Origin: Propionibacteriales bacterium | GTDB taxonomy: Bacteria > Actinomycetota > Actinomycetes > Propionibacteriales > Nocardioidaceae | DNA: 34,090 bases | Reading direction: 5' to 3' | NCBI GenBank assembly: GCA_009377795.1 | Contig: WHTJ01000049.1 | Span: 1 to 34,090, forward strand | In this document: in pieces, positions 28,735 to 30,329 of the stretch | How positions within the stretch are numbered: position 1 is the stretch's first letter | How the letters are laid out: the number at the start of each line of letters is the position of its first letter | Made by a program: the position numbers and the translations under genes | Notes under the pieces: generated by a model | Database searches by the model: none | Told to the model about the DNA's origin: nothing | Seen by the model: the letters and a program-made list of their open reading frames with translations, nothing else

Positions 28735-28760
28735 CACGGATCCACACGTGTGGATCCGTG
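28735..28760. promoter_or_regulatory. 26-bp perfect palindrome upstream of the surface-protein gene
   Basis: Both 13-base halves are exact reverse complements, from CACGGATCC on the left to GGATCCGTG on the right, centred on ACACGTGT. It ends 29 nt before ATG 28790. As RNA it would be a 13-bp hairpin without a T-run; as DNA it could bind a dimeric regulator. Position makes an operator or leader element likely. Confidence 0.6.
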
Positions 28761-28789: not shown

Positions 28790-29605
28790 ATGAATTGGCT
28801 GACCCGGCAGAGGTCGGTGCAAAGCGTGGCATTGACCGCGTTAGGCGCGGGGGTGTTGGTGGGTGGCGGTGCGCTGGTGCTTGCACCAAGTGCGGCAGCC
28901 ACGCATGTGGATCCGACCGAGGTGCCCGGAAACCAGAACTGTGATCTGTTTCTGGGCACCACCGAGATCAAGATCGAGGACCCCGCCGCCGACGATAGCG
29001 GGTCGAGCGGCGACTTCTCGGTCTCGATCACTGTGCACGGCACGGAGGAGGAGGGGAACCAGACCCTCGACTTCACCGCATCCGATGGCACGGTGCTCTT
29101 CGGCGCCATCATGAAGGGCGGGCCAGACTCGAACGTGTACGACTACCGCCCCGATGGCACCACCGCGGACACCGGCCTGCACACGCCCGTGAACCCTAAT
29201 AACGACAAGTTCTTCGGGATAAGCCACGTGACGTTCTGCGTCGGTGAGGCGCCGCCGACGGAGCCGCCGCCGACGACCGAGCCCCCGACGGAGCCTCCGC
29301 CCACGGAGCCGCCTCCGACCGAGCCGCCTCCGACGGAGCCTCCGCCCACGGAGCCGCCTCCGACCGAGCCGCCTCCGACGGAGCCTCCGCCCACGGAGCC
29401 GCCTCCGACCGAGCCGCCTCCGACCGAGCCGCCTCCGACCGAGGAGCCGCCTGCGACGCCGCCGTCCGAGATCGACGCCGGCATGAGCGCATCCGGCGAC
29501 TCTGACTCGGCAGGCTGGTGGCCCGCGGGCCTTGGCGCCAGTGCACTTCTGCTGGCCGTCGGCGCGGCACTCGCCCTCAGGCGACGCGGTGCGCACAAGG
29601 CCTAA
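28790..29605 (+). CDS. Secreted surface protein with EPPPT repeats and C-terminal sorting-type tail
   Basis: A 271-residue exported protein with a signal peptide (cleavage probably after SAAA near residue 37). A globular region (about 38-152) has two cysteines and the motif KGGPDSNVYDYRPDG...TGLHTPVNPNNDKFFGISHVTFC, a pattern seen in many actinobacterial cell-surface proteins. Residues about 155-224 are EPPPT repeats, a likely wall-spanning stalk. The C-terminus has a hydrophobic helix (about 243-263) followed by RRRGAHKA: a sortase-type tail without LPXTG; SEIDAG (226-231) or a nearby residue may be the site. GAGG at 28777-28780 gives the RBS. It is followed directly by a sortase gene. Confidence 0.8.
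   Translation: MNWLTRQRSVQSVALTALGAGVLVGGGALVLAPSAAATHVDPTEVPGNQNCDLFLGTTEIKIEDPAADDSGSSGDFSVSITVHGTEEEGNQTLDFTASDGTVLFGAIMKGGPDSNVYDYRPDGTTADTGLHTPVNPNNDKFFGISHVTFCVGEAPPTEPPPTTEPPTEPPPTEPPPTEPPPTEPPPTEPPPTEPPPTEPPPTEPPPTEPPPTEPPPTEEPPATPPSEIDAGMSASGDSDSAGWWPAGLGASALLLAVGAALALRRRGAHKA
29291..29425 (+). repeat. 45-bp tandem repeats coding for EPPPT
   Basis: Three 45-bp units (29291-29335, 29336-29380, 29381-29425), each encoding EPPPT three times, flanked by extra 15-bp EPPPT-type units on both sides. The third-base pattern is retained between the 45-bp units, which points to recent duplication of a three-unit block. Length variation between strains is expected. Confidence 0.8.
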
Positions 29606-29659
29606 GCACGCGGTGCGTGCAAGGCCTAAGCACGCGGTGCGCACGAAGCCCAAGCGGGG
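29588..29659 (+). repeat. 24-bp triplicated sequence at the surface protein-sortase junction
   Basis: The units at 29588-29611, 29612-29635 and 29636-29659 share GGTGCG and AAGGCCTAAGCACGC in the first two (2 differences), while the third is more diverged. The first unit contains the surface-protein stop. In the sortase frame they encode the 8-residue repeats VRTRPKHA, VRARPKHA and VRTKPKRG, each beginning with GTG, a possible start codon. Confidence 0.8.
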
Positions 29660-30329
29660 CGCACTCGCGCTGCTCGCCGCCGGGGGGCTCCTGGTCGGGA
29701 TCGGCCTCAGTGTCGACCCTCCCGCCAGGAGCCACCCCGGCGCGGCCGCTGACGCGGACAAAACGGAGGTCCGTGCAGCAGCGCCGCACAAAGGCGAGTC
29801 CCAGCCTTCCGGCGACCGGGATCGGCGAGAGCGGGAGCGGCGGGCGAGGCGCGGGTACGACGCCCCGCCCGCCACACCCGACGCGCCGTCGACTCCGGTC
29901 AAGCCCCGGCGGCTCAGGATCCGGTCGCTGGGCGTCGACGCACCGGTGGTGCCGATCGCGGCCGACGGGTCCCGGCTGGTTCCGCCCTCCGACCCGCAGA
30001 CCATCGGCTGGTGGTCGGCCGGAGCGCATCCCGGAGCCGAGCGCGGCACCGCGATCCTCGCGGGGCACACCGTGAGCACCGGGGGCGGCGCATTCGACGA
30101 CCTCGACCGGATGCGGCCGGGGCAGCGTGTCCAGATCCTCTCCGACGGCTCGCGCCTGAGGCTCGAGGTGACCACGGTGAACATCTACCGCAAGGCATCA
30201 CTGGCCAAGCATTCGGCCGAGGTCTTCGACCAGACCACACCCGGCCGAGTGGCACTGGTCACCTGCGAGGACTGGGACGGAACCCGCTACCTGAGCAACG
30301 CGGTGGTGATCGCCAAGCCGGTACGATAG
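29589..30329 (+). CDS. Class F-like sortase
   Basis: A 246-residue transpeptidase (from GTG 29589). A basic N-terminus is followed by a membrane anchor (about 24-42), a long Arg/Pro-rich linker (43-105) and a sortase beta-barrel (about 106-246). The catalytic set is complete: H160 (LAGHTVS), C226 (ALVTCED) and R233 (DGTRY). Sortases cut a C-terminal signal and join the protein to the cell wall; here the substrate is presumably the surface protein encoded immediately upstream, which the gene overlaps. GTG 29613 and GTG 29637 are equally placed start choices because of the triplicated junction. The short length and SLGVDAPVV start of the barrel favour class F over class E. Confidence 0.82.
   Translation: MRTRPKHAVRARPKHAVRTKPKRGALALLAAGGLLVGIGLSVDPPARSHPGAAADADKTEVRAAAPHKGESQPSGDRDRRERERRARRGYDAPPATPDAPSTPVKPRRLRIRSLGVDAPVVPIAADGSRLVPPSDPQTIGWWSAGAHPGAERGTAILAGHTVSTGGGAFDDLDRMRPGQRVQILSDGSRLRLEVTTVNIYRKASLAKHSAEVFDQTTPGRVALVTCEDWDGTRYLSNAVVIAKPVR

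Follow-up and report, generated by a model that had tools for sequence, protein, structure and literature searches.

The first class F sortase to be studied was reportedly SrtF of Cutibacterium acnes. In the accessible part of PMC13257024, this enzyme is cited as recognising LPXTG, and all sortases are stated to have a His-Cys-Arg triad. The class E enzyme SrtE1 of Streptomyces coelicolor, according to the accessible part of its description, has LAXTG as its signal and carries its arginine (R329) on strand beta-8 (PMC5148588). For Actinoplanes missouriensis, two proteins encoded beside class F sortases (AMIS_11010 and AMIS_36440) were described as having a signal peptide, a helix and a basic tail but no pentapeptide, and were suggested by the authors as possible substrates of those sortases; lacking a pentapeptide, they were set aside from further analysis there; deletion of all four class F sortases left the phenotype unchanged (PMC13251363, accessible sections). 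The same 2026 mBio paper states, in these sections, that the physiological roles of class F sortases are unknown (PMC13251363).

The locus described here lies on the forward strand of contig WHTJ01000049.1 of a Propionibacteriales bacterium (GCA_009377795.1), and the whole stretch that was analysed (34,090 nt) is called the window; coordinates are window positions and are collected in Table 1. The locus probably represents a two-gene cell-wall anchoring unit, in which a putative substrate is paired with a dedicated class F-like sortase that would read a signal other than LPXTG. Immediately 5' of the substrate ORF is a GAGGTGGA-like ribosome site, seen by eye, and 32 bp 5' of the gene there is a palindrome (GGATCCACACGTGTGGATCC), the 16-bp core of which occurs only once in the genome when up to one mismatch is allowed; it is a possible operator of the substrate-sortase pair. 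Around the pair, no promoter match was obtained and terminator matches were no more numerous than in shuffled sequence. The sortase ORF was listed as 29532-30329 from a TTG codon at 29532, overlapping the substrate ORF; a GTG start at 29589, 29613 or 29637 is likelier, in which case the sortase gene would overlap or abut the substrate stop codon. The 24-bp repeat crosses this stop-start junction and puts a short, repeated basic unit at the N-terminus of the sortase.

Table 1. Features of the substrate-sortase locus, in window positions; sortase residues are numbered for the 246-aa form.
Feature	Position	Strand	Basis or remark
20-bp perfect palindrome	28738..28757	.	1 window match with as many as 3 mismatches allowed; expectation 0.01
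Surface protein, putative sortase substrate, 271 aa, ATG start	28790..29605	+	ORF and homologues
Signal peptide, residues 1-37, AxA-type site at about 37	28790..28900	+	by eye
Ectodomain, residues 38-153	28901..29248	+	homologues, AlphaFold
PPPTE repeat stalk, residues 154-224	29249..29461	+	tandem repeat 29246-29458, period 15/45
Putative sorting signal PSEIDAG, residues 225-231	29462..29482	+	group consensus P-T-x-V-x-A-G
C-terminal transmembrane helix, residues about 243-263	29516..29578	+	hydropathy script
Basic tail RRRGAHKA	29579..29602	+	sequence
24-bp unit, 3 copies, spanning substrate stop codon and sortase start region	29584..29655	+	
Class F-like sortase, 246 aa if the start is GTG 29589	29589..30329	+	ORF, profiles, fold
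Catalytic His H160	30066..30068	+	His in 107/107 of the subtype
Catalytic Cys C226	30264..30266	+	Cys in 107/107 of the subtype
Asn N237, at the catalytic-Arg position of other sortases	30297..30299	+	sequence alignment

According to an earlier, sequence-only reading of this DNA, the upstream protein has a signal peptide, a stalk, a C-terminal helix and an arginine tail, everything of a sortase substrate except the pentapeptide, and all of these elements are present in the 271-aa product. LPXTG and LAXTG are absent from its sequence, and SEIDAG, at residues 226-231, does lie where the LPXTG motif would be expected. A spacer separates PSEIDAG from the hydrophobic helix. The protein carries the three features by which substrates were recognised, namely the conserved signal, the hydrophobic helix and the basic C-terminal tail. 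At E 0.01, the genome of the window gave no match to TIGR01167, the model for LPXTG anchors, in a search that was not exhaustive. The ectodomain is common to 17 other substrates, every one of which has the motif. The best AlphaFold model of the ectodomain (pLDDT 89.5; 68-75 in the other four) predicts an all-beta fold, and comparison with the PDB returned nothing with E below 0.18; with models this uneven and PDB matches this weak, no function is claimed from the fold.

The downstream protein matches PF04203 at 67.4 bits, above the curated threshold of 26.6, and its best-scoring class model is NF033748 (class F), at 84.9 bits, which is below the curated cut-off of 166 for that model. Its modelled structure is that of a sortase beta-barrel: AlphaFold gave pLDDT block means of 89-98 across residues 101-246, Foldseek matched the model to 2xwg with E 1.8e-10, and VIA-align returned Z-scores of 14.4-16.9 against the 50 solved sortases shown, the highest being for 3re9 (Z 16.9, rmsd 2.4, 128 residues aligned). 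Among solved structures, the nearest folds belong to sortases of classes C, A and E. At the sequence level, phmmer with the single window sortase found no match in the PDB at E 0.01, and a sortase profile matched 13 sortase sequences there, weakly. The six matches of a genome search with PF04203 did not include the sortase of the window itself, so this search was not exhaustive, and the same holds for the absences in the TIGR01167 search and in the scan of 396 genomes described below.

Sortases for comparison were taken from the genomes of 58 relatives, 45 of which gave a class F-like match, and from 80 loci of public genomes, the best 80 of 166 (Nocardioides, Kribbella, Mumia, Marmoricola, Actinopolymorpha and unnamed bins). 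With identical domains counted once, there were 144 distinct sortase domains, 107 with a tryptophan three residues after the cysteine, as in the window (the window subtype), and 37 without it; the 80 public loci were chosen by patterns including TCx[DE]W, and so are of this subtype by design. For each sortase, the ORF scored as its neighbour was the nearest one on the same strand with a C-terminal helix and basic tail, within 1 kb on the upstream side or 0.3 kb on the downstream side.

An IDAG-like motif had been expected to recur beside class F-like sortases if the pair were dedicated, and it does. In the window subtype, 95 of the 107 sortases have a neighbour matching P[TSLNQR]x[VIFL]xAG, four have a neighbour without a match and eight have no neighbour; shuffling of the pre-helix stretches (up to 37 residues) gave 0.51 expected matches, against 95 observed among the 99 neighbours, and for a stricter pattern 0.10 were expected and 90 observed. 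Beside the 37 sortases of other subtypes the pattern was not found once; 17 neighbours carry an xTG-type signal, seven have neither, and 13 sortases have no neighbour. The recurrence beside one sortase subtype supports a dedicated substrate-sortase pair with a different, putative cleavage signal, although IDAG itself was too narrow a description, the preceding P-T being part of the signal, and the signal is one of a larger set of class F signals that differ from LPXTG. Position 2 of the motif is Thr in 88 of the 95 sequences, Ser in 4 (the window among them), Leu in 2 and Asn in 1; position 4 is Val (78), Ile (14), Phe (2) or Leu (1), and position 5 is Asp (53), Asn (16), Glu (9), Pro (8), Ala (6), Ser (2) or His (1). 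Since the scoring pattern requires P, A and G, these three are constant in the 95 sequences by design. Of the four neighbours without a match, two from related loci read PTAVVGG and PTAIVGG, one reads PTVIASG and the fourth is a doubtful ORF. In 98 of the 99 cases the neighbour lies upstream of the sortase on the same strand. Homologues with a standard LPXTG in this place, which had been named as the outcome that would speak against such a pair, were not found: across the 99 neighbours, one LPXTG/LAXTG-like match (L008) was present in the C-terminal 70 residues, and it falls inside a transmembrane helix. Proteins with LPxTG-like C-termini do occur in relatives' genomes (L276-L279).

Other class F-like sortases, with signatures such as GHVDS and TCGG, have neighbours that read GVDTGxGG, NTGTGG, VPAGTGG, PTRVDAGSAG or PTSVDSGTGG before the helix. 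Across a wider set of 195 domains, 43 have no scorable neighbour and 10 have neighbours with neither signal. A tree was made from 112 domains, all of them class F-like rows, with SH-aLRT support calculated by the quick method. One clade of 49 rows (SH-aLRT 96) contains all PTxVxAG rows but one (40 of 41), together with five rows without a neighbour and four that carry neither signal; the exception is a TCGG enzyme whose signal, PSDVPAGTGG, was picked up by the loose pattern. Among the scored rows, the signal type (AG or TG) requires no more than two changes on the sortase tree, and a division of PTxVxAG from every other row takes 10 changes, compared with 33.5 in shuffles. The signal type tracks the branch of the adjacent sortase. 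In a phylum sample of 396 genomes, searched with up to seven candidates scored per genome, the window's genome scored 260 and 244 bits and no genome from outside the order scored above 129, so that in this sample the branch looks confined to Propionibacteriales.

The alternative that survives best is that the pair arose by divergence from the GVDTG sorting-domain system already known and does not differ from it in function. This is rather unlikely, but PTxVxAG is evidently a cousin of the signal that NCBI models as GVDTG_CTERM (NF058571): the window substrate scores 18.1 bits against this model (22.9 in the genome search), below the cut-off of 29, and its sub-threshold match is the best of 14 in its own genome. 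Sequences of intermediate type, such as PTRVDAGSAGL and PTSVDSGTGGL, are also present beside TCGG-type sortases. Against this, none of 17 other substrates scanned matches GVDTG_CTERM at E 0.1, matches below the cut-off turn up in 10 of 14 control genomes as well (E up to 10), so that weak matches mean little, and the PTxVxAG sortases form a separate branch of the tree. Descent from a GVDTG-type system is largely compatible with a dedicated pair reading PTxVxAG, and the two differ in the weight put on divergence. Searches of the open-licence PMC literature turned up no account of PTxVxAG, or of GVDTG, as a sorting signal.

The motif is carried by proteins that otherwise differ. When the 99 neighbours were clustered at 50% identity, 29 of 30 clusters had the motif in the majority of members, and at 30% identity this was so for 17 of 18 clusters; the signal therefore outlives the ectodomain. 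For a background estimate, 64 ORFs that have the helix and tail and lie over 1 kb away from a sortase were taken without a coding filter; five match the motif, and all of these are second substrates in Kribbella loci of the same sortase subtype. In six Kribbella loci (L097, L120, L121, L122, L127 and L137), two PTxVxAG substrates stand in tandem before one sortase. A C-terminal profile built from 54 sequences was run over the 58 genomes and produced 37 matches beginning at the motif (E up to 5e-4), of which 33 are no more than 1 kb from one of the class F-like sortases collected from these genomes. Among the others, one is 1.9 kb from a sortase (G005) and one, on contig C30 of G010, is a doubtful match that overlaps a class F-like ORF. 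For the remaining two (G048 and G028), no class F-like ORF was seen in the 9.5 kb of sequence examined, so some substrates may be encoded apart from their sortase. The window's genome has two full-length profile matches, the window pair and one on contig C27 (PTVVEAG), and both adjoin their own sortase of the window subtype.

These distributions bear on a second alternative, in which the motif is merely a structural element before the helix, the protein stays in the membrane and the sortase acts elsewhere. The pair has neither LPXTG nor the catalytic arginine, which is in keeping with such a role, but we regard it as very improbable: the motif is set back from the best hydrophobic segment by 9-24 residues (median 16) and does not end at its edge, it recurs on dissimilar ectodomains, its type switches with the sortase branch, and helix-and-tail ORFs distant from a sortase match it only as the Kribbella second substrates noted above (5/64).

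The sortase had been credited with an intact His-Cys-Arg set. This held for the histidine and the cysteine, which are invariant in the window subtype (107/107 each), but not for the arginine: the corresponding column is Asn in all 106 aligned sequences of the subtype. Arg233, the obvious arginine candidate, is Arg in just 15 of the 107. In the alignment of 195 domains, the N237 column is also Asn in 78 of the 89 domains outside the subtype, the remainder being Leu (4), Arg (3), Tyr (2), Thr (1) and Ile (1). The three domains with Arg (L171, L172 and L174) all come from one family of the order, f2, which by elimination would be Propionibacteriaceae. A search of this family with an Arg-type query found matches in 29 of 57 genomes and gave 29 alignable domains, 26 with Arg and three with Asn at this position; given the query, these figures are no measure of how frequent Arg is. 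The column reads WDSRIIFYA in the Arg-type f2 enzymes and YLSNAVVIA in the window subtype. Two of the three Asn-type f2 domains are TCEDW enzymes, and their neighbours read VNAG, VNSG or IAAG. The Arg-type loci mostly lack a helix-and-tail neighbour: within the short flanks, 24 of the 26 have none, and the other two have one that lacks a sorting-like signal.

Judged from these alignments, the catalytic Arg appears to be replaced by Asn in the window subtype and in most of the other class F-like enzymes sampled. An hhalign comparison of the window group with five class E sequences stops before the Cys, so the Arg-to-Asn reading rests on the alignment with sequences of family f2. The last strand of the AlphaFold model (residues 234-244) includes N237, and SrtE1 likewise has its Arg on the last strand, according to the accessible part of its description (PMC5148588); the modelled position of N237 would be comparable. 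Asn237 may take the role of the missing Arg, but with the arginine absent, sortase activity is not to be taken for granted. The presence of LPXTG proteins was also considered as a separator of Arg-type and Asn-type genomes, and was not relied on because the separation is weak: 19 of 25 Arg-type and 11 of 24 Asn-type genomes have a TIGR01167 match at E 0.01, and one match, in genome G020, is itself a PTxVxAG substrate.

Also encoded in the window's genome are a class E sortase (200.7 bits, cut-off 160) and, with a GVAAG neighbour, a class F sortase of TCGG type (203.9 bits, cut-off 166). In the same genome, two class F-like domains lack the catalytic His and Cys (L090, contig C109, 4871-5551 and 15416-16921), His being replaced by Tyr or Ser and Cys by Gly or Ala; they are possible sortase pseudoenzymes, and one of them directly precedes the intact TCGG sortase that has the GVAAG neighbour. 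The least probable reading of all, that the signal is read by the class E or the TCGG class F enzyme while the adjacent sortase is an assembly factor or inactive, can draw on the presence of these two enzymes, on the missing Arg of the adjacent one and on the two relatives whose substrates are away from any class F-like ORF seen, but it sits poorly with a His, a Cys and an N237 that are invariant and show no drift, with a signal type that follows the branch of the adjacent sortase, and with the different appearance of the two domains without His and Cys.

On the preferred reading, a dedicated pair with its own signal, gene 1 would specify a secreted protein, retained in the membrane by its C-terminal helix and arginine tail, and gene 2 a membrane-bound sortase that would read P-[T/S]-x-[V/I]-x-A-G close to the outer face of the membrane. 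If this sortase acts as the enzymes for LPXTG do, Cys226 would attack the carbonyl of the Ala to give an acyl-enzyme, the cut falling between Ala and Gly, and the piece comprising the Gly, the helix and the tail would be released. The protein would then be handed to a peptidoglycan precursor, with lipid II as the probable acceptor, and so become attached to the wall. Points against this reading are the loss of the Arg, the deletion in A. missouriensis that had no phenotype, the four neighbours that lack the pattern and the eight sortases without a neighbour, the P, A and G that are fixed by the pattern itself, the Ser of the window in place of the usual Thr, the 10 changes on the tree when unscored rows are taken as different, and the four profile matches farther than 1 kb from a listed sortase. 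A wider generalisation, which we consider possible rather than probable, is that most actinobacterial class F sortases are Arg-less His-Cys-Asn transpeptidases, mechanistically distinct, that would read a seven-residue or a glycine-rich [A/T/S]-G signal; the Arg and the Leu-Pro of the signal would have been lost together, and the PTxVxAG branch would be the clearest form.

An Asn at the position of the Arg would contradict the statement that every sortase has a His-Cys-Arg triad, as it stands in the accessible part of PMC13257024. A conserved signal with an adjoining enzyme makes the target of the poorly understood class F testable by a direct peptide assay, and PTxVxAG gives a route to wall proteins that are overlooked by searches for LPXTG. 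The enzyme is also a possible ligation tool operating apart from those based on LPXTG.

Among known systems, the layout of the window substrate is shared with GVDTG_CTERM proteins, which likewise have a C-terminal signal, a helix and a basic tail and are encoded beside class F-like sortases; the signal is GVDTG in that system and PTxVxAG in the window group. The class F model NF033748 matches all 24 sortases of alignment A1 and is the best class model for the window sortase; its signatures are TCGG and GHVDS and those of the window group are TCxxW and GHTVHTGGG. SrtF of C. acnes is likewise called class F and is compared here by its description. SrtE1 is similarly an actinobacterial enzyme with a non-canonical signal, but its signal is LAXTG and its Arg is present, as given in the accessible part of PMC5148588. 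A like gene arrangement is that of AMIS_11010 and AMIS_36440, which are known from their description in the accessible sections of PMC13251363, where no motif is given, and which have the same layout as the window substrate.
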